Assembly (NCBI GenBank): GCA_010094025.1 | Contig: ML991825.1 | Span: 150,258 to 214,257 of the forward strand | Direction of reading: 5' to 3' | Length of the DNA stretch: 64,000 nucleotides | Origin: Viridothelium virens | Lineage: Eukaryota > Ascomycota > Dothideomycetes > Trypetheliales > Trypetheliaceae | Shown: positions 14,531-35,676 of the stretch, one piece after another | How the letters are laid out: the number at the start of each line of letters is the position of its first letter | How positions within the stretch are numbered: the stretch's first letter is position 1 | The notes under the pieces: model-generated | Databases searched by the model: none | The model's input: the letters and a program-made list of their open reading frames with translations, nothing else | Told to the model about the DNA's origin: nothing | Position numbers and translations under genes: made by a program

Positions 14531-15645
14531 CCTGATTTACGAATTGATGATTGTTCTTAGCTCGAGTTCTCCGACAATGTCCACAAGACCTTGGGCGAGC
14601 GAATTGAAGATTAACCATCGCCAGCAATGCCGAGACTAAGTATTATACAGACATATAGAGAGTTACCTCCGCATTAGCTCATCCTGACCGATCCTCAAAT
14701 CATCCTGGGCACGAGCTACGCGTTCTGGAACAGTTTCCACAGACCTTGATCTCTGCCTAGCGCGTGGCAGCCCCATGGGGTTCTTTGCCGACGCTCCTTC
14801 GGCTCGGCAACGCTTTGCCTCATGAAGACGATCTGCTTTTGTAGGTCTCGGGAAAGGCTTTCTTCGGCAAACACTAGGAACAGTGGGAAAGTTGGCGAAG
14901 CATAGTGATCGCCTCTCCAGGGAAGGAAAAACCGTCCGATGTTGACACAGACCACCTGCCCTTATCTTCTGCCCTATCTCCTCTCACCTCTCATTATTTT
15001 CATGTTTTTGCTGCCTGAAATGCCCAGGGAGATTATTTTCCGATATTAATAGAGCAGAAAGTCAAACATTTACTGTCAAATTCCAAAACATATGACTTGG
15101 GAGGTGTTTGTTGTTGTGTGGGTGGTTGGTGGCAATTTCGGTCGGTTTTCCCATCCCTGGAGAGATCGCGTCTGGGGTCTTTTAACCGGCGAGACTAAAG
15201 CTTCCGGGGAGAAGATACCGAAGTTCTGCCGGCCGCCAGATGCATGTTTACCCCGCCCGCGCTCATCTGGCGACGCGAACCACTGGGGTCAGGTACCTGC
15301 ACGCGACGTTGGTGAGCCTGTGGAACGGCAGATACTCTTCCGGAATTCTGACGGAACTGGTGACCCTCTGATCCATGTTGAAATGGGTGTTATTTCGAGA
15401 GCGAACGTGAGCAGTTCAAAGCAGACGAGGTATTGTTTGTTCTCCCGCTCATTCTGCACTCGATACCATGTTTACACAGCGCTCGACAGAGATAGACTTC
15501 GGAAACTTGCTGGCACGATTGCAGCTGCTCGTCAAGCGATTTGAGTTCACGACCCTCGTAGTATGGATCGCTCTTCTGATGAGCGGGTGGCTGGTGGTGG
15601 ATTATGTACGAATGCTATGGCTTAGAGCAAGAATGGTAACCAGTG
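14531..15645. promoter_or_regulatory. Divergent intergenic region, MFS transporter / P450
   Basis: About 1.1 kb between head-to-head genes, so it should contain both promoters. The last part (15468-15656, plus strand) encodes a hydrophobic stretch (TTLVVWIALLMSGWLVV) that looks like the missing membrane anchor of the P450; see the P450 entry. No repeats or RNA genes seen. Confidence 0.35.
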
Positions 15646-17379
15646 ATGCCACTTGATTCATCAGCCATCTTCTCGACCGCGCTGATTTCGAGGAAGCCAC
15701 CAGGCCCCTTCCCTCTTCCTGTCGTCGGTAATACCCATCTGCTCCCCGACAAGAAGCCGTGAGTCTCTCAAATCTTCAGACTCTAGCCCCTCAATACTCA
15801 GTGCAAATAGATGGATCTACTTCGAGACCCTTTCTAAAACCTACAATTCGCCCCTCATCACCTTCTGGGTTGGTCGCCGCCCGACTATCTGGCTTAACGA
15901 TGCCTGGACCGCGTCCGCCCTCCTCGATAAACGTGCTGCTATCTACTCCTCTCGACCGCGCATGGTCGTCTTCGCCGAGTTGGGCGCCGGCCAATCCAAT
16001 CTCGTCAACATGTACTACGGTGACCGATGGAGGCTACATCGCAAACTCACCCACCTCGGTGTTGGGCTACAGCAGGTACGGAAGTATCGCGGTTTTCAGA
16101 ACGACGAGTCGAAGATTGTGGCTTGGAAGATTTTGGAGCAGCCTGAGAAGTATGCAGAGCATTTTGAGCGATATGCTACCTCGGTCGTGAGCATTATTGG
16201 GTTTGGGAGACGAGTCGCATCAGAGGACGATCCAATCGTGACAGAGGTTATCAAGGTCATGCAACGGGCGGCGGAGCTGAACGTTCCAGGCAAAAGATTC
16301 CCCATGCTGATGGAGACGCTTCCCTTCTTGGCTCGCTTTCCAACGGCAATCGCCCCATGGAAGCATGGACTGGGCCGTAAACGTGGCATCAACTTTTTCT
16401 ATGCCCTTGCTGAGGAAGCGAACGAGACTGAAGGACATGAAGACTCCTACATCAAAGCGATTTTCCGGGAAGGGCCCAAGTATGACCTTTCCATCGATGA
16501 AATCGCCTCCTTGTCAGGCAACTTGTTCGGTGCAGGAAGCGACACATCCAGCTCGACATTGATTACCTTTGTGCTTGCTTGTTGTGCGTTTCCTGAGACG
16601 CTACTGCATGCATGGGAGGAGCTCGACAAGGCCGTCGGCCCTTCGCACAGTCCGAATTGGGACGACCTCGAGCAACTGCCCTATGTCAAAGCATTCGTAA
16701 AGGAAGTCTTGAGGTGGAGGAGTGTTGCCATCATTGGCGGGCAACCACACGCACCCATCAATGACGACACTTACAACGGCTATCACATTCCGAAAGGTCA
16801 GCGAGAGCTCTCCTGTCCTAGCGATTTGATTGATCGCATACACTGACTTTATTCCAGGTACATGGGTCCAAGGCAACGTGTGGGCAATCCATCACCATGA
16901 ACGCGAATTTCCCGATCCCGATCGCTTCAAACCTGAGCGGTTTCTGGGAGACGATTCGTGGACGAGGCCATTTCCGAATGAAAAGGGATACATGACTTTC
17001 GGCTGGGGGCGTCGCGCATGTTCTGGTCAAGGTCTCGCTGAACAAGGAACTCTGATTACTGTTGCACGATTGCTCTGGGCGTTCCGCATCGAAAAAGCGC
17101 TAGATAAGACAGGTCAAGAGATTCCGGTTGATATCTTTGCGTACACGTGCGTATATCACGTCAGCGCTTGATCCATGCGGTAGCTAACACTTCCGTAGTG
17201 ATGGACTCAACATGCGCCCACAGCCCTTTAAGGCACGATTCACGCCAAGAAGCGAGGAGATTCGAGCGACCATTGAGAGAGAAGGTAGACAAGCGCTGCA
17301 AGATTTGGCGGAATACGAAGGGGAGACTAATTATCGGATGAGTACATTTTACCAGAATCCTACCCGGTCGAAGAAATGA
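15646..17379 (+). CDS. Cytochrome P450 monooxygenase
   Basis: Exons 15646-15758, 15811-16796, 16858-17146 and 17199-17379 encode 522 aa in one frame. The proline hinge KPPGPFPLPVVGN lies at the N-terminus. The I-helix oxygen-binding motif is AGSDTSSST, the ExxR motif is EVLR in KEVLRWRS, the PERF-type motif is PDRFKPERF, and the heme loop is FGWGRRACSG with Cys about residue 421. This is a complete class II fungal P450 core. The ATG at 15646 leaves no membrane anchor. An upstream frame starting at 15468 codes for a transmembrane helix but is one base out of phase, and I find no convincing 30+ nt intron that joins it except 5' GT near 15588 to AG near 15690. The enzyme probably oxidises the cluster product at the ER face. 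Confidence 0.9.
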
Positions 17380-17693: not shown

Positions 17694-18796
17694 TCAAGCA
17701 TATCTTCCCTGAATCCTCATGTGCTGAAACTCGCCTGCAGTTACAAACTCCGAGGACACCTTTGCTCCGAGACCCGAGCCGTCCAGCAGAGGGCGCAGAA
17801 CGGCTGTCCGATCAGGCTTTGCAAAATAAGCTATTGAAAAGCGCTCTTCAACGACATCCCCCTTTCTTGCTTGTTCGTTACCTTGTGGTAATTCAGGTAG
17901 ATGAACACGATGTCGTGCGCTACAGAGACCAGTCCATTTCTGCAGGCAATCTCCCGCATTCAGGATGCACTCGTACGGGCCTCCGCTCGCGATGCCGACG
18001 AAGCTCCCACTCCCGGGCGGTGATTCGACCTCAAGACCTCCTACGCGGTCTTGGAACAGGAGCGTGATGCTCCCAAAGTCGGTGTGCGCTGCAATCCGCG
18101 TCGAGGTAGAGAATGCCTCTTGCGGTACGGCTGGGTAGTGGGTTAAGCGTAGCTCATTGTGCTGAGCTGCGTGGAGCTGGCTTAGTGTCTGTGTTGGAAG
18201 GCCCAGCCCTATGGAAATAGCCTCGAGAATGAGCAGTTGTGTGCGGTAACATACTTCGAAGAATTCGACGAAGGTGGGCTCAAAAGTGTCACAGACCCCA
18301 GTAGGTGGCCAGATGTTGCTGTAGAGCTCGTCTCGTTCAGACCCAATGTCATATGACTCCTATCCGAAGAGTTTGGTAGCTGTGTCAGAGACCAGAAGTG
18401 GGGTTTGTAGCAGACCTTCATGTCTTTCAGAAGAGGAAGTTGGGATGACTTGTCCTCACGCCCATAGTTCGAGATGGTGGAGACATTCTCTAAACCTACC
18501 GCGCTGAAGCCTCGGTGTGGGTTTGCTGTAGGAGGATGAGGAGACTTTAATTTCTGGTTTAATGGTAGTTGGAAGAAATGCCGACTCTGGTCGATTCATT
18601 AGCGAATAGCACCTTTCGTCGGTTCACTTCGACTTACCGTTGCAAATGCCTTGTCAATTGTCGAAGGCTCGATGCCGTGATTTACGAGTCTCACGAAGCC
18701 GCGTTGTCTGAGGCCTGACACGAGTTTGCGGCAAAATTGATCACGCTTTGCTACATTGCCGCTTTGATAATTCGCAAAGTCAAGTCGCTCAAACAT
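17694..18796 (-). CDS. 2-oxoglutarate/Fe(II)-dependent dioxygenase (IPNS-like)
   Basis: Three exons (18796-18638, 18586-18416, 18359-17694) encode 331 aa. The N-terminal DIOX_N region contains GFVRLVNHGIEP. The double-stranded beta-helix core has the Fe(II) ligands HTD (AAHTDFGSITLLFQD) and His in SARHRVHLP, and the 2OG-binding Arg-x-Ser in ERFSIAYFAKPDR. The catalytic set is complete. I chose the ATG at 18796 (MFERLDFANY), which matches how this family begins; the frame is open a little further upstream without an ATG. Family members catalyse hydroxylation, desaturation or ring closure on amino acids and peptides. Lying 0.6 kb downstream of the NRPS on the same strand, it is the best candidate for direct modification of the peptide. 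Confidence 0.88.
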
Positions 18797-19413: not shown

Positions 19414-22400
19414 CTAGTGCTCACACAAAATTGTTCGCAGTCGAAGTAAAAACTCTCGCACTGTCCCCTCGTCAATAAGTTTCCTGTTGCCTTCAAATTC
19501 TAGCTCCAGCTTCCCACTTCGCGGTGTAGCGTAAATCTCTGGGCGATTGCGCGGAAGTAGGTCTCTTTCATAGACGGATACATTGCTCTGCCATCCCGCA
19601 AACGTGAACTCTGTATCCTCTTCTTGCTGATAAGCAGTACGCCACCCAAAGTCTTGCACTTCCTTCGGCCACTCAGTGCAACTTTTGATGATTTCAACCA
19701 TTCCCATGGCTTCATGAACCGAGTCTTGTATAAACTGGGGCTGTAACTGCATTGCGATGTCACTCATCGAATCACCCGCTTCTATGCGCAGTCTGACAGG
19801 GACTTCCGTTAGACAAGGGCCGACGACTTTTTGAAGCCGGGTTGGAAGCATTGAACGGCCCGTAACCAAGCGACCAAATACTACCTCATCTCGTTGAAAT
19901 TGTTGCGACAGGGCCAGAGCACAAGCAGCATGGAAAACTGTCGCAGGAGAGACTCCATCGAACCATCGTACACTGGGCATTTCAATGGTTTCCTTCATTG
20001 TCAAGCGATCTCCTGTGTTATAAGCTTGACCTGTCGGGTCGCCGGTACTCGACTCCGGAAATGGGCAGCCGTTCAGCCTTGAAGCCCAATACTGCATGCT
20101 GTCATTTTTCTTGGTCTCATTGAAAGCGATCACCTCACCAAAAGCAGGTGGTATTGGTAGACTCTCTTCACTGTAAATAGACGACAAACTTTTTAGGACG
20201 AGTCCAAAGCTGAACCCATCAAATTGAGCGTGAGATAGCCTGAAAATGAGCCTGTGCTTTCCGGAGTGATGCTTGATAGCCATGAAACGAATGAATGAAT
20301 GGCCCAATTTTCGATCCCTTTTGAGATCTTCCTCGCAGATAGTATTCGTGAAGGAGGACGCGGTTCCGTCATCGACTTCGAAAAGGTCAAAGGTCGGCTT
20401 AAAATCCGCTATCAGTACTTGCAAAAAGCCGTAATCTGCTGGTATGAAGACTGTATGAAGGATGTCGAAGTATTTCACTAGTTCTTCACATGCCCGCTTA
20501 AGCCTCGCGAAGTCTATATCGCTAGACAGGTCAAGGATCCAGTGCGGAAATCTGTTAGGCGGATCTTGTAGCGCATCTAGGATCGCGCGTTCCTGGAAAT
20601 CCGTCGTCGGAAAAACATTCTTGATACTTCCCACGTCTTGATCAAGAAAAGGTTGCACAGATTCCTGCAGAAATATTTCTACATCACTCACTTTGAGTAA
20701 CGAGAAAGGCGGCAATGCCTGTGAAGACTCCTTCTCTCCAGTGACTTCCGTCACTAGCTGTGCCAACTGAGAGAGACGAGGCGCTTTGAAGATATCAGCG
20801 ACGGTTAGCAATAGCTGTTGGTCCCGTGCGGCTGCCACCAAACGCATAGCTGCAATAGACTCTCCTCCAATCCTCAGAAAGCTACTATCAGCACTAATGC
20901 TCGAAGCCTCGATCCCGAGGACCGCGGACCACAAGATTTGTAACCGCTTCTCCATCATCGTGGATGGTGCGCGGCGCTCTTTACCTCGTGGTTGCAGTTC
21001 AGCAAGACGCTCCAGTGTCTTTGAACCTCCCAACTCTCGCAAGGCTCGTCTGTCTGTTTTGTTGGTCGTCGTCATAGGAATTTTATCAATAGGAATGTAT
21101 GCGCCTGGGACCATATACTGCGGTAAATGCTCCGAGAGGCTCTCCTCAAGGTCCTCCACAAGTCGCCCAAGCCTGGACCGGATATCTGAATTTGACCGAT
21201 TTCCATTTCTCGCGAGACTTAAGAACACGGCAAGGATAGGGTGCTCGCTATTTTGTGGCATGATAATCTCTGCAGCCACGCCATCGCAATAGCTGGACTC
21301 CCTCAGACTTGCTCGGACATGGTGTTCAACTTCTTCCAATTCTATTCGCTGCCCTCGTAGCTTGATCAATGTGTCTTTGCGGCCGATGAATTGCAAGGAC
21401 CCGTCTGTGTTGTATTTCAGGAGATCCCCTGTCTTGTAAAGCCTGCCATGCCGGCCTGGATGTCCTTCCAAGCCACGGGTGAGCCATGGCGGGTCATGCA
21501 TGAATGCTGCTGCTGTTTTGGCCTCGTCGTCAAAATAACCCTGACTAACAGTTGGTCCTTCAATTAAGAGCTCTCCAATGGCGCCAATGGCAGCCAGATG
21601 ATTTGGACGATCAGGCTGGACAAGCCATGTCAGAGCACCAAATGAATGGCCAACATGGTTGTTGGGTGTCCTGGGGCCAAGAGGGACTATTGAAAGAGCT
21701 TGCGCGCATTCTGCTGGGCCATAGATCCCAATGATTGTCTCTGCTTGTGCCCAGCGTGCGACCTCGGCACTTTGGATCGGCTCGCCTCCCATCGCCAATG
21801 TTCTAATACCCGGCATGGCAGATGGGTCCAATGACCGAGCAACTGAGGGTGTGAAGTACACGTAATCGGCGTTCATACGGTTGAGGGAACTAGGAATGTC
21901 ATTTTTGCGCTCCCATTCCGATGGTATGCAAAGGCATCCGCCGCATATCAAAGTATTTAAGGTGTTGGACCAGGAAACGTCAAAATTGTATGAGACGAAG
22001 TCGAAAACGCGAGTTCCCCGTTTGACATGTAGGGCTTTTGCCTGATGCATTGCTGCGGATGAGAAGTTTTCATGCGTCGTTACAACACCCTTAGGAGTGC
22101 CCGTCGATCCAGAGGTGAAGACGATATACAAGATATCTAATGGCGAAACTTTGGGTAACTGAATCTTGATCGGGCTTTGGCAAGGTTGCAACGGGAGAGT
22201 TGTCTTATCGGCCACGACGACATAGGAATTGGATATCCGTGTTGCTAGTGTTTCGTTGGCGACAGAAGAGATAATTAGCCTTGGATTGACTTGTTTGACT
22301 ATAGAACGTAGGCGTGCTTCTGGCTGGGTTGAGTCCATTGCTAGACAAGCCGCACCCGATTTCATTGTTGCTAATGCAGCTACTGGCATCCACAGTGACT

Positions 22401-25400
22401 TTTCGAAGCACAAGGGGATAACAGTCCCGGGGCCGGCACCAAGAGTAGCCAGTTGAGAAGCTAAGCGGTCAGAAAGATCATCCAGTTCTGCATATGATAG
22501 ATTTCCGTCCCACGAGCATATGGCTGGCGCCTGAGGTTGTTGCAATACGGTGTCCCTGATCGAATCGTGCACGCATGCTTGGTTAGGTCTCGGAACAGAA
22601 GAATTCCAGCCCCAAAGTTCTGTAATGTCCTGCGTGCTAACCGTCTCAATGTCTTCAACCAAGTGAGTCGAAGACGTACATACTTGACGGAGAACTTGTT
22701 CAAACTGGGAGGCAATGCGTTCCATTTGCACTACATCAACAACCTTCGAATCAAAGCTTATCTCTATTGATAGATCACTTGTATGTCTGAGCTGGCACAT
22801 TATCATTACAGCGTGGGGATTGAAGGTATCGAGTCCATCGGTGGAAACTTTTAGTTCGGAATGGGTCCGGAATGGTCCACCGCTGTGATTCACGTGCGCA
22901 CCATCTCCGGCTGGCTGAACGACAAGAAGAGTATTGAAATGACCGCTTGTTTTGGTATTCGTATCGGTGCGGCAAGCATCAAGCAATACCGTGTGCTCAT
23001 AAGGGATCATGTCAATGGACTGTTTCTGTAAGTTCTCCAGAAGGTCGTTGACGGTCATTTTTGGGTTGAACTTTACTCGCACGGGAAGTGCACTTATGAG
23101 AGGCGCGATCATGCGCTCAATGCCCGCTATTGGCGCCTGCCGTCCCGTTACCAGCGCCCCGAAGACTAAATCTTTGGAATCGGTATAGCATGCGGACAAG
23201 ATCGACCAAGCTGTTCTTATTACGGTTGACGCTGTGACGTCTCGATCGGGCCATCGCATATCATTTATATTGCGCTTCACCGTACTGTCGGCCTTTGGTT
23301 GATAATCCTGATAAGGTAGCATCGGAAAAGGAACAGCCTCAGAGTCTGAGAATTGATGGCGCCAGAACTCTCTGGCATTTTCCTTATCAGTTCTTACGGT
23401 GTGCTTCAAAAAGGCCTGGAAAGGTGCCACGGGGTATTTATTGATCTCGCCCATGTAGGAATTCGAGACTTCTTCAAGAAGCAAATCTAAAGAATGCCCA
23501 TCATATATTGCGTGATGTTGAGTAAGAACACAGTAGCGTCGTCCAGTTTCTGATTGTTCAACAATCGCTAGTCGAGTAAGACGGGAGGAGAGACCCATTG
23601 GTCTTCTTTGATCGTATTCGAGATACGCCTGCAGGCTTGGGCTGGTTTGCCATTCTAATTGTTCGCCCAGCTGTACCTGTATCAACCCTTCGATGGGAAT
23701 ATCAACTATCCTAGAGCGAAGAATCGGCGCAGTCGATCGGCTGACGTCTTCCCATGCTTGCTTCAGGCGATCAATGTCGAGATCGTCTCGTAGCTCCAAG
23801 AGAAGTCTTGCAATATAATCCCCAGGCCGTTTCGCTGTCACTGAAAGAAGTGATTTTTGGACATCAGTACAAGGGAATGCGTCTTCAATGTCTGATGCCT
23901 GTGTACCGCATAGCCTAGATATATGTGCAATACTCTTGTCCTTCATATTTGCCATCCGTAATAACGAGAACGGCTCCACCGTTTCTTCCTCCACCAAAGT
24001 GTCGGAGGGTCGAGATCGGGATGTGATTGCTTTTGCCATTTCGGAAAGTCGCGGCGAACGCAGAATATGTTGAACTGTTAGGTCAATACTTTGACTACGA
24101 GCTAGAGCAGCTAACCGCATGGCAGCGATGGAATCACCACCCAAGCGTAGAAAACCGCTGTTGGCGCCGATGGTTTCGATAGGAAGACCTAGCACTACTG
24201 CCCATAACTGTCGCAGGCAGTGTTCTGCATCTGTGGACACTGGCACCTCTGCCGCAGCTTCAGTTGCACCAGCCAGTTGTTCAATTGTCAGATCTGCGCC
24301 TATTTGCCGTAGGTGTCTTCTGTCGATTTTTCCACTCGCGGTTAATGGGACAGCTTCAATCGGTATATAAGCACTCGGCACCATGGATAAAGGAAGTCTT
24401 TCTGGCAAGGCAATTTGAAGATGGTTCACAAGCTCGTCCAACTGAGTAGTCGACTGTGACTCATGCTGTATAAAGACAACAAGGGTATCCTTCTCCGTCG
24501 CTTTTGGGACAACAATGTCGGCGATCATAGTTGGCACTGAGTGCGTACGTCCTAGGCATTGTTGAACATGGTGCTCTACTTCGGAAAGTTCGACCCTCTG
24601 CCCTCGAAGCTTGGTCTGTCTGTCTTTTCTTCCGAGGAAGAGCAATGTGCCATCGGCCGGATTGTATTTTACGAGGTCGCCCGTCCTGTACACACGGCCG
24701 CCCCTTCCAGGAAGTGCACCATCAGGAGAACCTTCCATCAGCCAGGTTGGGTTCTCTAGGAAAGCTGACTCTGTCTTTTCTTCGTCATGTAGATACCCTG
24801 CACCCACAAGCGGTCCCTCTAAACAAAGCTCTCCGATGGTACCTATAGGGCATAATCGCGTATTTGACAGTGGGTCTATTACCCAAGTTAAGACTCCTAC
24901 TCCAGTGCCTATGGACAGCTGACGGGGTAATGTGCTTGGAACGCTCCAATACGTCGCCATTGCGGAGCACTCCGTTGGCCCGTATACTACAGCGACATTG
25001 GCAGATGAGACCCAGGGAGCAAGGTCATCTGTTTTCACTTCTTCACCACCAAGGTAGACACTCTGAAGCGTTGGTATTCTGGTAGGGTCAATGAGTCGCG
25101 CAGTAGCGGGCGTCAGAAAAATGCTGGTGGTCCGAAATCTTCGAATGCTGTCAGTTAAGTTATTTTTCCGCTCTTCTTCACTGGGAATGCACAAGGTCCC
25201 GCCGGCACAAAGAACATGTAAAGCACTCCAGTGGGCTGCATCAAACGCGTAAGATGAGAAGTCGTACATGCGCGAACTTCTATCCAATTGGAGAACGTCG
25301 CGCTGATGTGATACGGCACTGCTGAAGTTCCGATGTTGTAACAAGCAGCCCTTAGGGGATCCTGTGCTTCCAGAAGTGAAAATAGCGAACAAGAGATCGG

Positions 25401-28400
25401 CAGATCCGACATTGGGTAGGGGGTCTTCACGCTTGTCAGTAACTGCAGCGTTGCAACTACGCAAGAGGTCCGTCTCTGCACCTAACAGCAAGACATTTGC
25501 GACCAGTCTTGAGGACAATCGTTTATTGGAGGGAGAAGATAGGATAATTCGGGGCTCGACTTGGTCCAATGTGGCCTCAAGACGGGATATCGGAAGAGTC
25601 GGATCCAGAAAGAGCCCGGCGCCACCAGCTTTCATTACGCTCAGAAAAGCGACAGGCATCCAGAGTGATTTTTCGAAACATAACGGAACGATCATGTTCC
25701 GATCAACACCATATCCGATCAACCGATGAGCAATGGCACTTGAAAGTTCATCTAGTTGGCTGTAAGTGAGTTCACCATCCCAGGCAGAGATCGCCACTGC
25801 ATCGGGATGAGCTTGAGCAATATTGGTGATCATGTCATGCGCACAAACTTCAATACTTTTAGGCAATCTGGCATTCCACTTCCACACTTGATCGAGGTCC
25901 TGGTGTGTCATCATGCTGACGTCGCGAAGGCATACTGTGTCAAGGTCCCGAGAACAGAGGTTCCTCAACAGCTGCTCGAAATGCTGCACCAATTTCTGTA
26001 TGGTAGCTTGGCCGATCACCTTAGAGTCGAAGCTAAGCTCTAACTTCAATTGCCCCGCTTGAACTGTGCACACAGCCAGCAGCGCATATGTGTTAAAGGC
26101 ATGAAAGCGGTGTTCTTCCTTGTGGCGCTTACTTGGGCCAACCTCAGAAACAAATAATCCACTGTCCATCATGTCTGGTTGCTCCGGCTGCACGACCAAC
26201 ATTGTCTGGAACTGGCACGCAGTTTTCGCTTCCTCACTGCATCGACTTATCTTCGACAGCCCTGTTTGCTCGTATGATATCATCTTGGTCGCCTGGTCCT
26301 GTAGAGCTTGTAGAAACTGGACGATGTTTCTTCCATTGTCAATATTGACTCGGATTGGCAGAGCAGATATAGTCGGACCAGCAATTCGTTCGATCCCTAC
26401 AGTGGGAGCCTTACGGCCCGAGACAATTGTTCCAAATACTGTATCCGAGAGATTTGTGTACCGTGAACATAGTATGGCCCAGGCCCCCCGAACTACTGTT
26501 GAGGGTGTAGAGTCGTCCGTTCGCCACGTTATCCCGTCTACCATATGAGTATAGGACGAGTCTGCTTTCGGTTTGAACGAGCTAGAGGGCAAAGCTGGGA
26601 ATTGAGTTGTTTCCAAGCCATCGAACTGAGCTTTCCAAAATTCGCCTTCTGCATCCCAATGTTGACTGCTGACATATTCAATGAATGATCGGAAAGGGAA
26701 GAGGCGGAGAGGTGTTTCACCATTGTAATAACGTTCCAGCACCTCAAATATAATGGGTGTAGTAAGTCCATCGTATATCGAATGATGCAGCGTCAATGCA
26801 AAAACATGGGAGCGTTCGCCTCCAGGTCCACTTTCGGGGTCTAGGAAAAGGCCGCACCTCATGAGAGGAGACCCAAGTACCATCGGAAGCTCCTCTTGTT
26901 TGCTCAGATAATCTTCAATACTTTCAGCTTCCATCCAACATGAGATGTGTCGAATGACTGCTTGGACTAGGCCTTGAGCAGGTAGGTCAATGATGCGGGT
27001 TCGCAGGATTGGGATGACCGAAACAACTTTTTCCCAAGCCTCTTTCAGTCGTCTAACGTCCACGGTGGAAGCCAGTTTTAGCATGTTGTGACCGACATAA
27101 TCGTCCTTCCGCATCCCAGTCAAGGCCAATAGGCCCTCTTGTAGCGGTGTACAAGGATATAGGTCTTCGATAGTATCCTTCTCGACGTTGCAAAGGGATG
27201 CTGCATGCTGACGTGCTTGATCGACGTTGACTTTCGGATTGAGGAGTAAGAAAGATTTAGACGACTCCTCATCTACCTCATCTTGATTCCTTAGTAATTT
27301 CGCCATATTCTTGAGTTTTGGGAATTGAAAAATATCGGCCACCTTCAGCGACAGGCCTTGCTGCCGAGCTGCGCCCACCAAACGCATGGCCTGAATTGAG
27401 TCACCCAGTCGAAGAAAGCTATCACTCGTTGAGATTTTCTCGGCGTCCACTCGAAGGATACAAGACCACAGTTCCCGTAATGTTCTCTCAGCCGTAGTCG
27501 CAGGCTCTCGTTTCCCGTCGGTCCCCTGTTGCTGCGGTTGAAATGAAGCTCCAATCTCTCGGAGGCGGATTCGGTCCTTCTTGCCTGTCGAGGTCATCGG
27601 AATGCTGGCAACTGGTATGTAGTAGGAAGGAATAGCAAATGCAGGTAAAGACGCCTTGAGTCCCTCATTCATCCCAGCTGTCAGACTTTCGAACTCATCT
27701 TGTGACGCCGTTTCCGCCTCGGCAAAACTAATGAAAGCCACGAGACATGCGTTGTTGCCATCCTTGGGGACTATGAGTTCAGCCACCACATCAATGTTCG
27801 CTCTTCTCGAGAGGCGCCGTACATGAAACTCCACTTCCTCAGGCGCAACAAGCTGGCCTCGAACCTTGAATAATGCGTCTTTCCTCCCCAAGAAGATGAG
27901 TCTGCCACTTGAATCGTATCTGGCTAGGTCGCCGGTGCGATAAATCTGGCCGTGCCTGCCGGGAGATCCTTCGCGTCGTCCGCACAAGAGAAAATCCGGA
28001 TCTTTGCAGAAAGAGCGATTGCTTAATTCTGGATTGCCTTGATATTTTTCAGCGCATGCCGGCCCTTCGAGTGCGATTTCGCCTATCGCACCAAATGGAA
28101 CAAGTTTGTTATGGTTTTTAGGATTGACAAGCCAGCAAAAAGTTGACGGACTGGAGTTAGATCGTCCAATCATACCGTTGTGCCACCCTTCTTCGTCAGC
28201 AGCGCAGAATGCCGCTGCAGAACATTCACACGGACCATACCAGTTGAGGATGCGACTTCTGCCTCTCCACCGGTCGACTTCCTCTTGCACGAGGTTCTCT
28301 CCACCCAAAAAAAGCGTGGACAGGCTAGGAACTTCCTGAGGGCTGAGAAGTTTTGCAGTTGACGGGGTAAGACATGCAAGATTGCAGTCAAAACGGTTGA

Positions 28401-31400
28401 TGGCAGCCGTCACTCCGTCGAACCTCTCAGACTCGGACGGAATACACAGACAAGCGCTGTTTGCAAGTGTAGACATCGTCTCAATAGTACAGGCATCGAA
28501 GTCATGTGATGTAAACTGGAAGGTCCTTGATGATGTACTCAGCGCAGCAACTTCTTTGTGCGCGTTCATATTAGCTGCAAGAGTTCTATGAGTCCATAAA
28601 ATCCTTTTCGGTTCGCCTGTGCTACCAGATGAGACCAATATCGCGGCTGGGTCATTTATAGACATTTCTGGTAGGCTCGTGCGAATGCTATCCTCAATCG
28701 GCCTTTCCATGAGCCGACTTATCGTGAAGCAACGAATGTATTTGGTCACAATCTTCGAACGCATCTCTGAGGCTACTGCGAGGTGAGGACCAACGCTGCT
28801 GAAGATGCTACTCATTCGGCGCTCTGGCATATGCACTGACTGTAATAAGCATACGCCTCCTGCTTTGAGCACCGCCAGCTGTGCAATGGGGGTCCATTTT
28901 GACTTTTCCAGGCACAAAGCGATGATCGAACCTCGCGTCACACCCAGGCTAATCAGATTCTGACAGAAGATATCAGAAAGCTCGTCAACCTCTCGATACG
29001 AGAATTTCCCGTCCCATGCATCCACTGCTATCGATTCCGGAGTTTTCCTGGCTGCAGAGGCAACTTGGTCATGCGCACACATCTGAGGAGCCCGATAAGG
29101 CTCTGCATTCTCGCTCCAGAAAAAGCTGAGGTCAATGTCGCTGGCAGTGCAAATATCGCCAAGCTTCCTGCTCTCAGCATCTGCTATGCACATCTGATGA
29201 AGAACAGTCTCGAATTGGTGCGCTATTCGTTGAATCTGCCCACTTTGGACAAGCCTGTTGTCAAAACTGATGTGCAGCTGCAGGCCTGAAGTCTTTAGCT
29301 CACATATCAGCATCAAAGCATACGTGTTGAAAGGATCAGTGCCTCGCGTATCAATATTCGAGGAGAAACTTCGGGCCTTGAATAGTAAGCTATCCTCTTG
29401 TAAGCTTTTGCCTTGAGCCACTGGTTGTACGACGAGTAACGTCTGGAAAAGGCCACTTCCCGGGTCTCCGATAGCACGTTGAATATTCGACAAACCGTAG
29501 TGTTCATATGACATCATGCTCACCGATTGATGCTGAATACGTTTCTGAAAATTTCTAATTGTCTCGTCCCAATCGATTGAGACGGCCACGGGCACCGTAG
29601 ATATGGTAGGACCGACGCAGTCCTCGATACCTTTCATGTCTGCTTGACGCCCGCTGACAGTGGCACCGAATATAACATCGCCGGAATCTGTGTATTGAGC
29701 AGAAAGAACGGCCCAAGTGGAGCGTATGATTGTCGACGGTGTCATCCCCGAAGACGGCCAATCTAATGATATACCGTGCGACAGATCTTCATTCGCTTGT
29801 GGATCATAAGTTGGAGAGGGAACGACTGGAAACTGCCTAAATTCCAAGTTTGGAATTTGTTGCTTCCAGAACTTTGATGCCGCTTCCGGGTCAACATTCG
29901 TTGAATACTGAATAAAATTCTGGAAAGGCGTGACATTCATGCCTCCTTGTTCGAGGTACTTCGACTCCAACTCATCCAACATCATCCTCAACAAGCTTCC
30001 GTCGTAAATGCAGTGATGAATTGTCAGGATGAACCTATTGTCGATAATAGCAGCACGGCAAAGATCCGTACCTAGTCCCATCTCCTCGCGCTCATCCTCT
30101 TTCAAATACGCGTCTACGTTGTCGCCAGTCCGCCATGAAACATTGACGAGAATGACCTGGAACAATCCCCGACCAGGGTAGTCAATGATTCGAGTTCTCA
30201 GGATGGTCAGTTTCTCGGTCGTAGCTCGCCATGCCTTTTCTAGCCGTTCAGGATCCACACCAGTCTGAAGCTCGAGGACACTTCGTGATACATATTGGCC
30301 CGGCCTCCTCACAGTCATTGCGAGGAGACCTTCTTGAAGAGCCGTGCAAGGATACATGTCGATAACGTGAGAATGTGGAACCTGGCAAACTTCGGCTGCA
30401 TACAATCGAGCTTCAGTATGAGCAATGTTCAGGTCGAGAAGTGTGAAAGGAGGCACTCCTTGCTGGGGAGAGTTGACGTCTTGCTTAACTACTTCAGCCA
30501 ATTTATCTAGTTGTGGGGTCTGGAATACTTGCGCCACGGTCAGCGAAAGCCCTTGGGCATAGGCTGACGCAACAAGACGCATCGCGCTGATTGAGTCGCC
30601 TCCTAGGCGCAGGAAGTTGTCGCCAGCATGTATAGTATCTCTCTCGATCCCGATTATTTCTGCCCAAAGGTTTTGTAATACTTTCTCCATGTAAGTGGAG
30701 GGTTTTCTCAGCTCACGACGAGATGGTTGTATCTTTGCCAGCTGGTCAAGCGTCAGCGAGCTTCCAATCTGCCGTAGGCGCTGCCTGTCAATTTTTCCGG
30801 TGTAACCTGTTGGGATTTTTAGAATCGGAATATAGAGCTTGGGAATCATGTACGGTGGTAAGACATCGGAAAGGCTTCTTTCAAGATCGTCCACCGGGAA
30901 TATTCGTTTCATAAAGTGATCAAGTTCCTTTGCAGAGCCAGCTAAAACAGCAGGGGGGCTGACGAAGAGAGTTAAAACTTCATTTTCGCTTTTCTGCGGC
31001 CGGAAGATCTCTGCTACTATTGTTGTATCGGTTGTCTTCGATAAGAAGCATTGAACTTGGTGCTCAATTTCGCTCAGTTCGACTCTCTGCCCACGTAATT
31101 TTCTTTGGAAGTCATCACTACGTCCAATGAAAATTATGCTACCTTTAGAATCGTACTTCACAAGATCCCCAGTTTTATATATTGGCCTATTTCGTCCTGA
31201 TATCACATCGCGACCGTGATGAAGCCAGCGTGGGAAGATGAAAGGGTTTTCCGGTGATGTCTGGCTGTCGCCACCAATATAACCATTTGCAAGAATTGGA
31301 CCCTCAATGCAGAGTTCTGCAATCGTACCAATAGGGGCCAGAAAGTTGTGATCTTTCGGATCAACGAGCCAACTCGAGCCGTATATGCTGCGACCAATCA

Positions 31401-34400
31401 TCCCTGGCTTCCAAGTCTCGTCTTCGACTGTGCACACGGTCGCACAAGATGCTTCTGCTGGTCCGTACCAATTGTACAAATGGTGGAGAGTGCTTGTCCA
31501 TCTGGTTGCAGGATCTTGTAGTAGCTTTTCGCCTGTGAATACCAGAGTTTTCAATGAGGGGACATCTTTGGGAAGGATCGTGTTGGCAACTGACGGTGTA
31601 AGACAAATCCAATTGGCCTGCATCTCATGAATGGCTTCAGCTAGGTGGTCAGACCTGTGATCCTCTGATGGAACGCACAAGCAGCCACCAGCGACTAGCG
31701 TCGCAAGGGCCTCCAAGCTGCTCACATCAAAATCATATGCTGAGAACTGGAACACTCTACTACCAGTAGTGATCTTGAAAGCCGATACAGCTGCATGGAC
31801 ATTGCTTGATAAACTTGCGTGACTCCAGGAAATGCTTTTCGGAGTACCAGTCGACCCAGAAGTGAAAATAATTATAGCAGGGTCGGCCGAAACTGGCTGG
31901 GCTAACCGGGTCTTCTCGGTGCCATCTACTCTATCTGGTTCGACAAGTTCAGAGATGTGGAAGACTGGTACGAACCCATAAAATGCGGACGACTCGGGTA
32001 TGCTTGATGTTATGACTAGCTTAGGTCCTAGGGCATGGAGAACCTTATGAGCACGATGAATAGAAGCGGATACAGACATCGGCAGTGCTGTGGCCCCGGC
32101 TTTGAGGATCGCTAGTATTGAGACTGTCATCCAGGCTGACTTTTCAAAGACCAATGGAATGATGCTCCCAGTGCCAACACCTTTGTCTCGCATCTTAGCC
32201 GCGAGAGATGTTGATAAGCGTCCCAATTGGTAATAGGTAATTTTCATATCCCAAGCCGAGACGGCAAGAACGTCTGGTTGAGCGAGCGATTTGGTGTCGA
32301 TCCAGTCGATGACAGGATTCAAGGTCGGTCGAGGAATATGTCTATTCCACTCCGAAATCTCTACAAGGTCTTGCTCACTGAGAGCTGAAACATGACACAA
32401 TTTCATATTTCTGCCTTCTTCAGTACAAAACTGCCTCAGTAAAAGCTCCAGCTGGTGAGCAATACGTCGAACCTGTATGTCTTGAATTGCTCCGGAATCG
32501 AAATTTATTCTAAGCTTGAGACCTGATTCTTCCAATTCGCAGATAATCATCATTGCATAGGAGTTGAACATGCCCATACTTTTTGTCTGCTCGAGTATAA
32601 GGTCATCTCCCGAATCTGTACAACGCCGAGAGAAAAGGCCTCCTTGCTGTTGGCTGGATCCCTGTACAGCAGGCTGAACAACGAGTAAGAGCTGAAACTG
32701 ACTGGCTTCCTGGGTATCTTGAGTGATGTGCTGGATTCTTTGTAGGCCAAATTGCTCGAAGTCTGTCATTTCTAATGCTTGGCTTTGTATTTGTTCGTGT
32801 AAATCTTCTACGGTCTGGTCCCATCCGAATTTAATTCGTACTGGTACTGTCGCGATGGTGGGCCCCGCCATTCGCTCTATACCAGTGACAGACGCTTGTC
32901 TACCGCTTATAGTTGTCCCAAATTTGACATCGTCCGAATTGGTGTACAATGCTAATAGCATTGCAGTTGCTGATCTTATAATTGATGAGGCAGTAATGTT
33001 CGTGGATGGCCATTGTAGTCCGGAAATTGGGTGATAGAAATCCATGTTAATTCCACCATTGGAACTTGGAGATGGGAAGACTGTTGCCCGTAACCCTGAC
33101 AATTGCCTTTCCCAGAATTCTGTAGCTTTGGGCACATCTATGGCCATTGAATATCTAATGAACGATTGGAAGGATACAAGAGGCCAAAACGTTGTCTGTT
33201 CAGCACGATAAGCTTGCGCAATAGTATCCAGGATGAGCATCGTACACCAGCCGTCATGGATAGCATGATGCATTTCCAAATAGAATAGACGTCGATCACC
33301 ATTGAGAAGACCTGCTCGACATAGCGGTGTTCCGAGGCCCATTCCTCCTCTTTGACTCAGTGAAGCGCCATCAGGAAAGTGTGCATGTAATGTTACTGGA
33401 GAGCTCAGAACCACGTTCACAAGACCATTTCGCGAGAGTTCAATGATGCGAGTACGAAGGATGGATATCTGCTTGACCGTGGCTTCCCAAGCCTTTTGGA
33501 ACTTTCCAACATCAAGTTCATGAGGCAACCGGAAGACTACCTTTGATATGTAGTCTCCTGCCCTTCTGGAAGTCATTGCAAGCATTCCTTGCTGAAGCGG
33601 AGTGCAGGGATATACGTCCTCGATCTCAGTGATTTCAACGCCGCAAAGCCTTGCAGCTTCTTGGCATACTGCGAGCTTCTCTTTCTTTCCATTCAACAGG
33701 GAAAATGGCGCAGGAGCTTCGTCATGCTGTGATTTAGCCTGAGCTCTAGTGATATTGGCCAGGTCGCTCAGCTGTGGTGTTCTGAAGATATCTGCCGCCG
33801 TAAGCATTAGGCTCTTCTCGCGCGCTGCTGCAACCAAACATACAGCAGCTACTGAGTCGCCTCCTAACCGGAAGAAACTATCTGTTGTGCTGATACGAGC
33901 GGGACTCAAATCCAATACTCGTGCCCAGAGCTGCCGAAGATGATGTTCGATCTCGTTGGAGGGTTTGCGATACTCGGCACTGGTCATGATCGACGACTGT
34001 AAGCTGTTCAGATCTTCCCGAGAAAGACCATTCCCAATCTCTCGAAGTCGCCGTCGATCTACCTTACCAGTGGCAGCAAGCGGGATCTCTTCGACAGGAA
34101 GGTAAAAACTAGGGACCATGAAGCTCGGTAACACTTTAGAAAGCTTCTGCGAAAGACCGTCTATTAGCGGCTTGGCTCGTTCCCTCTCGTGTTCTTTTAC
34201 GTTTACGAACAGCACGAGCGAGGGGCTTCCATTGCCGGCAGGATGGACGACATCTGCGATAATCGGGAGCTCATCATCCAAGCAGGCGCGCGCATGATAT
34301 TCGACATCACCGATCTCGACTCGTTGACCCCTGATCTTGAGTTGCGACGCATCTTTCCGGCCAATGAAAAGGAGCTTCCCATCTGTTTTATACTTTACAA

Positions 34401-35676
34401 GGTCCCTAGTCTTGTAAAGTCTGCCTCGCCTACCAGCGAACTTACTGCTGCCGGTCAATAGCCAAGGAGGATCGTGGATAAATGCTGTGGATGTCTGTTC
34501 TGGATTGGATAAGTAACCTTGGCCAACAAGTGGCCCTTCTAGATACAGCTCCCCTACAGCTCCCCTCGAAACGAGTTTGTCGGTATCGTGTGGATGAACG
34601 ATCCAGGTACCAAAGCCAACTCCTACACCGATATCCGGGCGCTCGTCTTTTGTAGAAGGAAGTAGTGAGAAAGCACATTTAAAAGTGCATTCAGTCGGTC
34701 CATAAGTATTCAGAAGCCTCACATGCCTAGCCCAGATCAAGTTTTCGCGGTAAGGCATTTCACCGCTCAGGAGCACTGTGCGAAGAGTGGACGGGATCGG
34801 ACTGATAGTCCGTAGAACTGTTGGGGTGACGTTGATCAAGGACGCGTTGAATACCTGTATTGTTGAAGAAAGATCGTTCATCATGTCTTGTTCTGATGCG
34901 ATACAGATACAGCCACCGGCGCATATGGTGTGCAAGAAGTTACTCCACGCTACGTCAAAGGAGTATGGTGCAAAGTCCAAGACGCGCGACTCGCAGCAAA
35001 AGCCGAGCTTCTTTCCTTGGTATTCAACAGCGCTCCTTACATTGGCATGGCTGATGCAGGCTCCTTTGGGCAGGCCCGTGGTGCCAGATGTGAAGGAAAT
35101 ATAAGCCGTGTCTAAAGGCGAGACCACAGGGAGTCGGGATGAGTGCTCTGGGAGATGAAGCAATGTTTCGTCAAGTTTGAATACTGGCACGTCCGCCAGA
35201 AGCGAAGCCCTCTCGTAATTAGCGGTGGATGAGATGATTACTCCCGGCTGCGCCTGCTGAACAACGGATCGTAGCCTAGCATCTGGTTGAGCAGGATCGA
35301 GGGCAATGGCAGCACATCCTGACTTTATGACGCCTAGCATTGCAACAGGAGTCCATCTCGTCTTCTCAAAACAGATGGGGACGTTCGACTTCGGAGTAAT
35401 GCCCAGATCAATAAGTTGCTGAGCGACCCGATTCGCTAGAGCATCTAGCTCAAGATAGGTCAATTGGCCATCCCAGGCATCTACTGCCAGCGCTGAAGGC
35501 TGAATTCCAGCTATCTCTGCGATCAAGCTGTGGACACAACCATGGACTGGGTCCGGTACAGAAGAATTCCAGTTCCATATTAGGTCGAGATCCTCCTGAC
35601 TAGCATTGACAGAGACGGTGGGCTCCTCTGAAGAGAATTCGGCTGTATTAGCTAGGAGGTCATTGAGTAGGTGCAT
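19414..35676 (-). CDS. Five-module nonribosomal peptide synthetase, A-T-(C-A-T)4-CT
   Basis: One intronless frame of 5420 aa. Domain order with rough residues: A1 45-560, T1 570-640, C1 690-1120, A2 1150-1650, T2 1660-1725, C2 1765-2190, A3 2225-2715, T3 2725-2790, C3 2835-3270, A4 3305-3800, T4 3810-3880, C4 3930-4360, A5 4395-4895, T5 4905-4970, terminal C (CT) 5015-5420. Phosphopantetheine serines are at 608, 1695, 2760, 3849 and 4940. Internal C domains carry intact HHxxxDG (HHAIHDG, HHCIYDG, HHSIYDG, HHAIYDG). CT carries SHAQFDG, the fungal cyclising type. All A domains keep the Asp235 equivalent and the A10 lysine. There is no starter C, E, MT, TE or R domain. Expected product: a pentapeptide released by macrocyclisation. 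T3 reads LRLGDS, lacking one glycine of LGGDS; T5 reads GGES. Neighbouring tailoring genes support a biosynthetic cluster. Confidence 0.97.
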   Translation of the reverse strand: MHLLNDLLANTAEFSSEEPTVSVNASQEDLDLIWNWNSSVPDPVHGCVHSLIAEIAGIQPSALAVDAWDGQLTYLELDALANRVAQQLIDLGITPKSNVPICFEKTRWTPVAMLGVIKSGCAAIALDPAQPDARLRSVVQQAQPGVIISSTANYERASLLADVPVFKLDETLLHLPEHSSRLPVVSPLDTAYISFTSGTTGLPKGACISHANVRSAVEYQGKKLGFCCESRVLDFAPYSFDVAWSNFLHTICAGGCICIASEQDMMNDLSSTIQVFNASLINVTPTVLRTISPIPSTLRTVLLSGEMPYRENLIWARHVRLLNTYGPTECTFKCAFSLLPSTKDERPDIGVGVGFGTWIVHPHDTDKLVSRGAVGELYLEGPLVGQGYLSNPEQTSTAFIHDPPWLLTGSSKFAGRRGRLYKTRDLVKYKTDGKLLFIGRKDASQLKIRGQRVEIGDVEYHARACLDDELPIIADVVHPAGNGSPSLVLFVNVKEHERERAKPLIDGLSQKLSKVLPSFMVPSFYLPVEEIPLAATGKVDRRRLREIGNGLSREDLNSLQSSIMTSAEYRKPSNEIEHHLRQLWARVLDLSPARISTTDSFFRLGGDSVAAVCLVAAAREKSLMLTAADIFRTPQLSDLANITRAQAKSQHDEAPAPFSLLNGKKEKLAVCQEAARLCGVEITEIEDVYPCTPLQQGMLAMTSRRAGDYISKVVFRLPHELDVGKFQKAWEATVKQISILRTRIIELSRNGLVNVVLSSPVTLHAHFPDGASLSQRGGMGLGTPLCRAGLLNGDRRLFYLEMHHAIHDGWCTMLILDTIAQAYRAEQTTFWPLVSFQSFIRYSMAIDVPKATEFWERQLSGLRATVFPSPSSNGGINMDFYHPISGLQWPSTNITASSIIRSATAMLLALYTNSDDVKFGTTISGRQASVTGIERMAGPTIATVPVRIKFGWDQTVEDLHEQIQSQALEMTDFEQFGLQRIQHITQDTQEASQFQLLLVVQPAVQGSSQQQGGLFSRRCTDSGDDLILEQTKSMGMFNSYAMMIICELEESGLKLRINFDSGAIQDIQVRRIAHQLELLLRQFCTEEGRNMKLCHVSALSEQDLVEISEWNRHIPRPTLNPVIDWIDTKSLAQPDVLAVSAWDMKITYYQLGRLSTSLAAKMRDKGVGTGSIIPLVFEKSAWMTVSILAILKAGATALPMSVSASIHRAHKVLHALGPKLVITSSIPESSAFYGFVPVFHISELVEPDRVDGTEKTRLAQPVSADPAIIIFTSGSTGTPKSISWSHASLSSNVHAAVSAFKITTGSRVFQFSAYDFDVSSLEALATLVAGGCLCVPSEDHRSDHLAEAIHEMQANWICLTPSVANTILPKDVPSLKTLVFTGEKLLQDPATRWTSTLHHLYNWYGPAEASCATVCTVEDETWKPGMIGRSIYGSSWLVDPKDHNFLAPIGTIAELCIEGPILANGYIGGDSQTSPENPFIFPRWLHHGRDVISGRNRPIYKTGDLVKYDSKGSIIFIGRSDDFQRKLRGQRVELSEIEHQVQCFLSKTTDTTIVAEIFRPQKSENEVLTLFVSPPAVLAGSAKELDHFMKRIFPVDDLERSLSDVLPPYMIPKLYIPILKIPTGYTGKIDRQRLRQIGSSLTLDQLAKIQPSRRELRKPSTYMEKVLQNLWAEIIGIERDTIHAGDNFLRLGGDSISAMRLVASAYAQGLSLTVAQVFQTPQLDKLAEVVKQDVNSPQQGVPPFTLLDLNIAHTEARLYAAEVCQVPHSHVIDMYPCTALQEGLLAMTVRRPGQYVSRSVLELQTGVDPERLEKAWRATTEKLTILRTRIIDYPGRGLFQVILVNVSWRTGDNVDAYLKEDEREEMGLGTDLCRAAIIDNRFILTIHHCIYDGSLLRMMLDELESKYLEQGGMNVTPFQNFIQYSTNVDPEAASKFWKQQIPNLEFRQFPVVPSPTYDPQANEDLSHGISLDWPSSGMTPSTIIRSTWAVLSAQYTDSGDVIFGATVSGRQADMKGIEDCVGPTISTVPVAVSIDWDETIRNFQKRIQHQSVSMMSYEHYGLSNIQRAIGDPGSGLFQTLLVVQPVAQGKSLQEDSLLFKARSFSSNIDTRGTDPFNTYALMLICELKTSGLQLHISFDNRLVQSGQIQRIAHQFETVLHQMCIADAESRKLGDICTASDIDLSFFWSENAEPYRAPQMCAHDQVASAARKTPESIAVDAWDGKFSYREVDELSDIFCQNLISLGVTRGSIIALCLEKSKWTPIAQLAVLKAGGVCLLQSVHMPERRMSSIFSSVGPHLAVASEMRSKIVTKYIRCFTISRLMERPIEDSIRTSLPEMSINDPAAILVSSGSTGEPKRILWTHRTLAANMNAHKEVAALSTSSRTFQFTSHDFDACTIETMSTLANSACLCIPSESERFDGVTAAINRFDCNLACLTPSTAKLLSPQEVPSLSTLFLGGENLVQEEVDRWRGRSRILNWYGPCECSAAAFCAADEEGWHNGMIGRSNSSPSTFCWLVNPKNHNKLVPFGAIGEIALEGPACAEKYQGNPELSNRSFCKDPDFLLCGRREGSPGRHGQIYRTGDLARYDSSGRLIFLGRKDALFKVRGQLVAPEEVEFHVRRLSRRANIDVVAELIVPKDGNNACLVAFISFAEAETASQDEFESLTAGMNEGLKASLPAFAIPSYYIPVASIPMTSTGKKDRIRLREIGASFQPQQQGTDGKREPATTAERTLRELWSCILRVDAEKISTSDSFLRLGDSIQAMRLVGAARQQGLSLKVADIFQFPKLKNMAKLLRNQDEVDEESSKSFLLLNPKVNVDQARQHAASLCNVEKDTIEDLYPCTPLQEGLLALTGMRKDDYVGHNMLKLASTVDVRRLKEAWEKVVSVIPILRTRIIDLPAQGLVQAVIRHISCWMEAESIEDYLSKQEELPMVLGSPLMRCGLFLDPESGPGGERSHVFALTLHHSIYDGLTTPIIFEVLERYYNGETPLRLFPFRSFIEYVSSQHWDAEGEFWKAQFDGLETTQFPALPSSSFKPKADSSYTHMVDGITWRTDDSTPSTVVRGAWAILCSRYTNLSDTVFGTIVSGRKAPTVGIERIAGPTISALPIRVNIDNGRNIVQFLQALQDQATKMISYEQTGLSKISRCSEEAKTACQFQTMLVVQPEQPDMMDSGLFVSEVGPSKRHKEEHRFHAFNTYALLAVCTVQAGQLKLELSFDSKVIGQATIQKLVQHFEQLLRNLCSRDLDTVCLRDVSMMTHQDLDQVWKWNARLPKSIEVCAHDMITNIAQAHPDAVAISAWDGELTYSQLDELSSAIAHRLIGYGVDRNMIVPLCFEKSLWMPVAFLSVMKAGGAGLFLDPTLPISRLEATLDQVEPRIILSSPSNKRLSSRLVANVLLLGAETDLLRSCNAAVTDKREDPLPNVGSADLLFAIFTSGSTGSPKGCLLQHRNFSSAVSHQRDVLQLDRSSRMYDFSSYAFDAAHWSALHVLCAGGTLCIPSEEERKNNLTDSIRRFRTTSIFLTPATARLIDPTRIPTLQSVYLGGEEVKTDDLAPWVSSANVAVVYGPTECSAMATYWSVPSTLPRQLSIGTGVGVLTWVIDPLSNTRLCPIGTIGELCLEGPLVGAGYLHDEEKTESAFLENPTWLMEGSPDGALPGRGGRVYRTGDLVKYNPADGTLLFLGRKDRQTKLRGQRVELSEVEHHVQQCLGRTHSVPTMIADIVVPKATEKDTLVVFIQHESQSTTQLDELVNHLQIALPERLPLSMVPSAYIPIEAVPLTASGKIDRRHLRQIGADLTIEQLAGATEAAAEVPVSTDAEHCLRQLWAVVLGLPIETIGANSGFLRLGGDSIAAMRLAALARSQSIDLTVQHILRSPRLSEMAKAITSRSRPSDTLVEEETVEPFSLLRMANMKDKSIAHISRLCGTQASDIEDAFPCTDVQKSLLSVTAKRPGDYIARLLLELRDDLDIDRLKQAWEDVSRSTAPILRSRIVDIPIEGLIQVQLGEQLEWQTSPSLQAYLEYDQRRPMGLSSRLTRLAIVEQSETGRRYCVLTQHHAIYDGHSLDLLLEEVSNSYMGEINKYPVAPFQAFLKHTVRTDKENAREFWRHQFSDSEAVPFPMLPYQDYQPKADSTVKRNINDMRWPDRDVTASTVIRTAWSILSACYTDSKDLVFGALVTGRQAPIAGIERMIAPLISALPVRVKFNPKMTVNDLLENLQKQSIDMIPYEHTVLLDACRTDTNTKTSGHFNTLLVVQPAGDGAHVNHSGGPFRTHSELKVSTDGLDTFNPHAVMIMCQLRHTSDLSIEISFDSKVVDVVQMERIASQFEQVLRQVCTSSTHLVEDIETVSTQDITELWGWNSSVPRPNQACVHDSIRDTVLQQPQAPAICSWDGNLSYAELDDLSDRLASQLATLGAGPGTVIPLCFEKSLWMPVAALATMKSGAACLAMDSTQPEARLRSIVKQVNPRLIISSVANETLATRISNSYVVVADKTTLPLQPCQSPIKIQLPKVSPLDILYIVFTSGSTGTPKGVVTTHENFSSAAMHQAKALHVKRGTRVFDFVSYNFDVSWSNTLNTLICGGCLCIPSEWERKNDIPSSLNRMNADYVYFTPSVARSLDPSAMPGIRTLAMGGEPIQSAEVARWAQAETIIGIYGPAECAQALSIVPLGPRTPNNHVGHSFGALTWLVQPDRPNHLAAIGAIGELLIEGPTVSQGYFDDEAKTAAAFMHDPPWLTRGLEGHPGRHGRLYKTGDLLKYNTDGSLQFIGRKDTLIKLRGQRIELEEVEHHVRASLRESSYCDGVAAEIIMPQNSEHPILAVFLSLARNGNRSNSDIRSRLGRLVEDLEESLSEHLPQYMVPGAYIPIDKIPMTTTNKTDRRALRELGGSKTLERLAELQPRGKERRAPSTMMEKRLQILWSAVLGIEASSISADSSFLRIGGESIAAMRLVAAARDQQLLLTVADIFKAPRLSQLAQLVTEVTGEKESSQALPPFSLLKVSDVEIFLQESVQPFLDQDVGSIKNVFPTTDFQERAILDALQDPPNRFPHWILDLSSDIDFARLKRACEELVKYFDILHTVFIPADYGFLQVLIADFKPTFDLFEVDDGTASSFTNTICEEDLKRDRKLGHSFIRFMAIKHHSGKHRLIFRLSHAQFDGFSFGLVLKSLSSIYSEESLPIPPAFGEVIAFNETKKNDSMQYWASRLNGCPFPESSTGDPTGQAYNTGDRLTMKETIEMPSVRWFDGVSPATVFHAACALALSQQFQRDEVVFGRLVTGRSMLPTRLQKVVGPCLTEVPVRLRIEAGDSMSDIAMQLQPQFIQDSVHEAMGMVEIIKSCTEWPKEVQDFGWRTAYQQEEDTEFTFAGWQSNVSVYERDLLPRNRPEIYATPRSGKLELEFEGNRKLIDEGTVREFLLRLRTILCEH

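Follow-up and report, generated by a model that had tools for sequence, protein, structure and literature searches.

Domain organization of the synthetase

The window analysed here is a stretch of 64,000 nucleotides from Viridothelium virens (positions 150,258 to 214,257 of contig ML991825.1), which closes a contig of 214 kb in an assembly of 30.7 Mb. It harbors, at 19414..35676 on the minus strand, a single open frame that starts with an ATG and encodes a five-module nonribosomal peptide synthetase (NRPS) of 5420 amino acids; from the base composition, the log10 probability of an open frame of 5420 codons is about -117. A gene for an Fe(II)/2-oxoglutarate (2OG) dioxygenase of 331 amino acids lies downstream in tandem with it (17694..18796, minus strand; exons 18638-18796, 18416-18586 and 17694-18359).

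Motif and profile searches disclosed five adenylation (A), five carrier (T) and five condensation-family (C) domains, arranged in the order (A-T-C)x5 and all encoded on the minus strand. The first module consists of A1 (34042..35502, residues 59-545, code DVSNLSTFKK) and T1 (33757..33954, residues 575-640, FFRLGGDSVAAV), followed by C1 (32422..33621, HHAIHDG). Then come A2 (30772..32280, residues 1133-1635, code DVLCVTWCAK), T2 (30496..30693, residues 1662-1727, FLRLGGDSISAM) and C2 (29191..30363, HHCIYDG), and after these A3 (27559..29043, residues 2212-2706, code DAICFGWAAK), T3 (27301..27495, residues 2728-2792, FLRLG-DSI, where one glycine of the GGDS motif is missing) and C3 (25951..27168, HHSIYDG). 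The fourth unit is made up of A4 (24307..25809, residues 3290-3790, code DAWFYGVAMK), T4 (24034..24231, residues 3816-3881, FLRLGGDSIAAM) and C4 (22624..23886, HHAIYDG). The last one comprises A5 (21037..22539, residues 4380-4880, code DVSYAGIQAK), T5 (20761..20958, residues 4907-4972, FLRIGGESIAAM) and the terminal C domain (CT), whose Pfam-matched span is 19426..20541 (SHAQFDGFSF). A Pfam scan of both protein halves retrieved solely AMP-binding, AMP-binding_C, Condensation and PP-binding matches, and no methyltransferase (MT), thioesterase (TE) or reductase (R) domain. An epimerization (E) domain would match Condensation too; given the order of the Condensation matches, the internal four each lying after a T and before an A domain, there is no room for an E or a starter C domain.

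The frame was compared with a family alignment made of 60 homologues plus the Bogoriella sequence (61 rows) and the window NRPS itself (62). The window sequence carries no private insertion of at least five residues with respect to the 61 other rows, and 17 well-filled columns are absent from it; since there is no private insertion, no sign of a retained intron can be seen. The gene that the database predicts on this contig (P0002) spans residues 113-4114 only and looks truncated; since the homologues reach 5.2-5.8 thousand amino acids, the full 5420-residue frame is probably the gene. An earlier sequence-only reading of this stretch had described the same set of domains (five A, five T, four internal C and one terminal C-like) in one frame, devoid of starter C, E, MT, TE and R domains, and had proposed a domain calling; the searches agree with it on each of these points, and its view that the frame is intronless appears to hold as well. 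Other NRPS genes are present in the same genome on contigs C90, C21, C22 and C4, the first of which has an open frame of 6574 residues.

Distribution and phylogeny of the synthetase family

The database search with the NRPS yielded 928 significant matches out of 954 scored, and the figures given below refer to the best 120 matches listed. At least 60 homologues of 5150-5850 amino acids share 50-59% identity with the window NRPS, besides that of Bogoriella at 45%. The matches listed come from Trichoderma, Cladobotryum, Clonostachys, Apiospora, Pyricularia, Seiridium, Penicillium, Aspergillus, Talaromyces, Xylogone and Bisporella, and from the lichens Letrouitia, Teloschistes and Ikaeria, with further rows from metagenomes. 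A taxonomy look-up placed Trichoderma in the Sordariomycetes, Penicillium in the Eurotiomycetes, Xylogone in the Leotiomycetes, Letrouitia in the Lecanoromycetes, and Massarina, Bogoriella and Trypethelium in the Dothideomycetes, the other genera bearing their customary class labels. GRA1, HC-toxin synthetase and NRPS 13, names borne by some homologue records, seem to have been assigned automatically.

A tree of 46 rows roughly follows the classes, with exceptions such as Talaromyces marneffei, which stands beside two Leotiomycetes. Bogoriella and Massarina are basal in this tree and the window NRPS is placed with the Lecanoromycetes, joining four to eight rows from Lecanoromycetes and metagenomes with supports of 95 and 99 in two trees. 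A clade formed by the window NRPS and that of Bogoriella, which is of the same fungal family, was rejected on 20 rows (approximately unbiased test, p-AU 1.4e-50), this clade having been chosen after the first tree and a long-branch warning standing at Bogoriella. The grouping with Lecanoromycetes might be the outcome of a horizontal transfer or of an ancient paralogy followed by loss.

The sequence-only reading had recognized no described synthetase with this domain order and these neighbors, and had indicated a close full-length match to a characterized NRPS as an observation that would speak against it. No such match was recognized among the best 120 of the 928, so that this part of the reading stands. 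Among the fungal synthetases making cyclic pentapeptides are CctN and AstN, for cyclochlorotine and astin, respectively. Proteins of Talaromyces islandicus and Cyanodermella are absent from the 120 listed NRPS matches, which is weak evidence against a kinship with CctN or AstN; the former is named in the title of a reference in PMC8949500.

The uniqueness that the reading had implied is contradicted by the 60 or more homologues and also by the literature, where the A-T-C x5 order is already in print. Aspergillus hancockii NRPS 11 has this organization, and the accessible text on it gives Trichoderma virens TRIVIDRAFT_52861 as its nearest homologue and mentions no product (PMC5381763). BBP40_001323 of A. 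hancockii (P0027) and TRIVIDRAFT_52861 (P0008) both fall in the family of the window NRPS. The same order is reported for Parastagonospora nodorum SNOG_01105, also with no product in the portion of the source at hand (PMC4205913), and this protein can be likened to the window NRPS by order alone. A full-text search for TRIVIDRAFT_52861 retrieved the locus tag only and no product; more generally, no product of any family member was found in the literature searched, most subscription papers lying outside its reach.

Substrate codes and the terminal condensation domain

Code positions were placed via conserved A-domain motifs in the GrsA numbering. The degree of conservation differs from module to module: in 61 rows, A1 has two code forms among 59 complete codes and A5 seven among 59, followed by A2 (15 among 61), A4 (22 among 58) and A3 (36 among 60). 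The mean entropies are 0.085 (A1), 0.357 (A5), 0.37 (A2), 1.07 (A4) and 1.52 (A3) bits per position. Thus, the codes of modules 1, 2 and 5 are near-fixed across the family and those of modules 3 and 4 are variable. The mean pairwise identity of the whole domains, with every seventh pair sampled, is 0.65 for A1 and A5 and 0.53-0.57 for A2-A4. The two forms of the A1 code, DVSNLST(F/W)KK, cover 59/59 complete codes, the window having the F form, and a glutamine is found at code position 330 of A5 in 61/61 rows, a pattern that includes the window code. TRIVIDRAFT_52861 and BBP40_001323, which are 57% and 55% identical to the window NRPS over the full length, have identical A1 and A5 codes and differ from it in those of A2, A3 and A4. 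An aspartate at position 235 occurs in all five window A domains, which is consistent with alpha-amino acid substrates. Lys331 is present in every complete A1 code, from which a preference of A1 for an acidic substrate might be speculated.

Domains C1-C4 share the HHxxxDG motif, and the terminal one shows SHAQFDG. The histidine and the aspartate of the latter are kept in 60/61 rows of the family alignment, the remaining one being gapped, and the first motif position is occupied by Ser in 57 of the 61 rows, by Ala in three and by a gap in one. The best match of the terminal domain in the PDB is the CT domain of TqaA (5dlk, E 1.6e-20), which is part of a synthetase that is smaller and makes another product. 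As a control, the internal C1 was searched in the same way; its best match is a bacitracin synthase (E 3.3e-24), TqaA being found at 1.9e-11. Fungal synthetases are known to close rings by means of their CT domains (Gao et al. 2012, as cited in PMC4205913 and PMC8949500). The conserved His of SHAQFDG and the resemblance to TqaA suggest that the terminal domain is of the cyclizing kind, as the sequence-only reading had supposed.

The dioxygenase partner and the putative product

The dioxygenase is identical (100%) to a protein of a metagenome-assembled genome of Trypethelium eluteriae, a member of the Trypetheliaceae. Among the matches listed, an orthologue lies on a contig of the same size for 24 of the 87 NRPS rows with at least 45% identity, and the two genes have neighboring locus tags in four genomes; in A. 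hancockii, the dioxygenase is the next locus tag to the NRPS. For all fungi other than that of the window, gene order is deduced from locus tags and same-sized contigs only. The five iron/2OG residues occur in 39/39 aligned dioxygenase rows (39 of the 120 listed matches); a stricter motif expression recovered 22/34 full-length rows, the pattern being too strict. The fold and the iron/2OG residues of thymine 7-hydroxylase are present in the window enzyme, whose relatives include that of Neurospora crassa (5c3r) and UcsF (9ktp). The identity with these two is 33%, which is too low for transferring a substrate to it, and its orthologue group, differently from them, is linked to the NRPS; this linkage argues against thymine as the substrate.

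A cytochrome P450 gene of five exons, encoding 561 amino acids, is located at 15468..17379 on the plus strand, and was considered and discarded as a tailoring partner: it shares a same-sized contig with an NRPS row in 1/119 cases only, and looks like a widespread, conserved P450. It matches a protein of the T. eluteriae metagenome-assembled genome with 99% identity over 91% of its length, and one of Bathelium mastoideum, of the same fungal family, with 83% identity over 77% of its length. Its listed matches, about 64-76% identical, include many ascomycetes and some basidiomycetes, many of these fungi being absent from the NRPS listing. Of the neighbors mentioned in the sequence-only reading, the dioxygenase alone is supported as a partner; no comparable link is visible for the P450. 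Genes for an S-adenosylmethionine methyltransferase, a short-chain dehydrogenase/reductase (SDR), an FAD monooxygenase and a sugar-transporter-like protein are found at 7243-14187, perhaps forming another small metabolic cluster. The ankyrin-repeat, GMC, GH3, band-7 and transketolase-like genes that flank the NRPS on its opposite side look unrelated to it. An open reading frame with a Tc5-type transposase DNA-binding domain (48915-49499, minus strand) is likely to be part of a mobile element.

Since the NRPS has five modules, no epimerase and a terminal C domain of the cyclizing type, its most likely product would be a cyclic pentapeptide composed of L-configured or achiral residues, as already proposed in the sequence-only reading. 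On the whole, it is rather probable that the enzyme, a member of a broad orphan family of Pezizomycotina, makes a cyclic pentapeptide released by the CT domain and probably modified by the adjacent dioxygenase. If the modules are used collinearly, module 1 (A-T, without a starter C) would load the first residue, and modules 2-5 would add one residue each via canonical C domains with no epimerization. The CT domain, with the second His of SHxxxDG, would then join the free N-terminus to the T5 thioester, thus releasing the cyclic pentapeptide, and the dioxygenase might act on the peptide or on an amino-acid precursor in its free form, by hydroxylation or another oxidation. Because residues 5, 1 and 2 adjoin in such a ring, they could form a contiguous, near-constant face, with a side made of residues 3 and 4 that would differ among fungi.

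Some observations weigh against this interpretation. The serine of the CT motif is replaced by Ala in three Aspergillus rows and by Pro in Bogoriella, and P0004 is gapped there. The carrier T3 is without one of the GGDS glycines. The five nine-residue code strings of the window NRPS found no match in a full-text literature search. A total of 63/87 NRPS rows have no same-sized contig with a listed dioxygenase, even if the clustered database and the limit of 120 rows may hide partners, and the dioxygenase may be truly missing in some species. Of the 24 shared contigs, moreover, 18 exceed 400 kb, so that they indicate the same contig and do not imply adjacency. Lastly, the core motif A7 of A1 (34399-34416, residues 421-426) reads YKTRDL in the window, with a Gly in place of the Arg in 61/61 other rows; this change could weaken A1 or abolish its activity, or could be a wrong base or an assembly error.

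The alternatives to a CT-released cyclic pentapeptide can be weighed on the same evidence. Release by hydrolysis, or the closure of a depsipeptide ring via a hydroxyl group on a side chain, perhaps introduced by the dioxygenase, would fit the linkage of this enzyme to the family and the ability of CT domains to use other nucleophiles; however, the terminal domain retains both the second His and the Asp, its nearest solved relative being the CT domain of TqaA, which forms an amide, and an ester is not indicated anywhere in the sequence, so that this outcome seems unlikely. The skipping of module 3 because of its glycine-short carrier, leading to a cyclic tetrapeptide or a shunt product, might be suggested by the motif FLxxG(D/N)S, found at the T3 site (27397-27423) in 61/62 family rows (the lone exception is Talaromyces proteolyticus, with GSS; the outgroup P0101 has GGDS), and by the A3 code being the most variable. 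Nevertheless, the serine of T3, preceded by an Asp or Asn at residue 2759, and the catalytic residues of A3 and C3 are kept, and the mean pairwise identity of T3 (0.65) is higher than that of T1 (0.58), T2 (0.63) and T4 (0.62), T5 having 0.72. Moreover, the six-module relatives P0055 and P0067 exhibit the same single-glycine variant in both T3 and T5, as if it were tolerated. T3 thus looks like a maintained variant rather than a decaying one, and skipping appears improbable.

A silent gene in this lichen, or an enzyme crippled for instance by the glycine-to-arginine change in A7, is very unlikely: YKTRDL occurs in 0/61 other rows, but an unbroken frame of 5420 codons that still encodes the other catalytic residues counted would not be expected after long disuse. 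A synthetase of the cycloaspeptide type, acting with a trans N-methyltransferase on free amino acids, whose gene would be the one at 7243-8004 (plus strand), has equally little probability. PscyB of Penicillium soppii, the one characterized synthetase of this architecture available for comparison, has a proven product and was expressed in Aspergillus oryzae NSAR1 (PMC5941284). It resembles the window NRPS in having five modules, no MT domain and a terminal C domain with SHAQYDG (PMC5941284), and a methyltransferase gene does exist in the window. However, PscyB, which was compared by its codes, has an anthranilate module 1 and an N-methyltransferase partner instead of a dioxygenase (PMC5941284). 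Its codes equal those of the window at 16/50 residues in register, against 12-15 in the other four rotations; window A1 has an Asp at 235 and not the anthranilate-type Gly235, and the codes are not of the Ala/Phe/Leu/Tyr set. Furthermore, the methyltransferase gene is not adjacent to the NRPS, being more than 11 kb away, past the SDR, FAD-monooxygenase, transporter, P450 and dioxygenase genes, and the paper on PscyB reports having found no homologous clusters in public genomes (PMC5941284), whereas the window family counts dozens of members.

The cyclic pentapeptide synthetase proposed here has a known architecture; the breadth of its family, the dioxygenase link, the code pattern and the T3 variant emerged from the present analysis. 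No description of the breadth, the partner gene or the code pattern was retrieved from the literature searched, within the same reach as above.

The distribution of many fungal NRPSs does not extend beyond one species or genus. This family occurs in five ascomycete classes, with the dioxygenase link in four of them via shared contigs and with three of the five codes near-fixed, and this suggests that its product is under common selection. Since Trichoderma virens, which is genetically tractable, carries a family member, this product can be tested directly. It might be advanced, tentatively and with more doubt than confidence, that the family makes a class of hydroxylated cyclic pentapeptides, still undiscovered and of ancient inheritance, ranging from Eurotiomycetes and Sordariomycetes to lichens, with a fixed 5-1-2 face (one residue of which is possibly acidic), a variable 3-4 side, and T3 as a tolerated, previously undescribed carrier variant. 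If this were true, a single conserved target or role would be suggested by how broadly the synthetase has been retained along with a dioxygenase dedicated to it.
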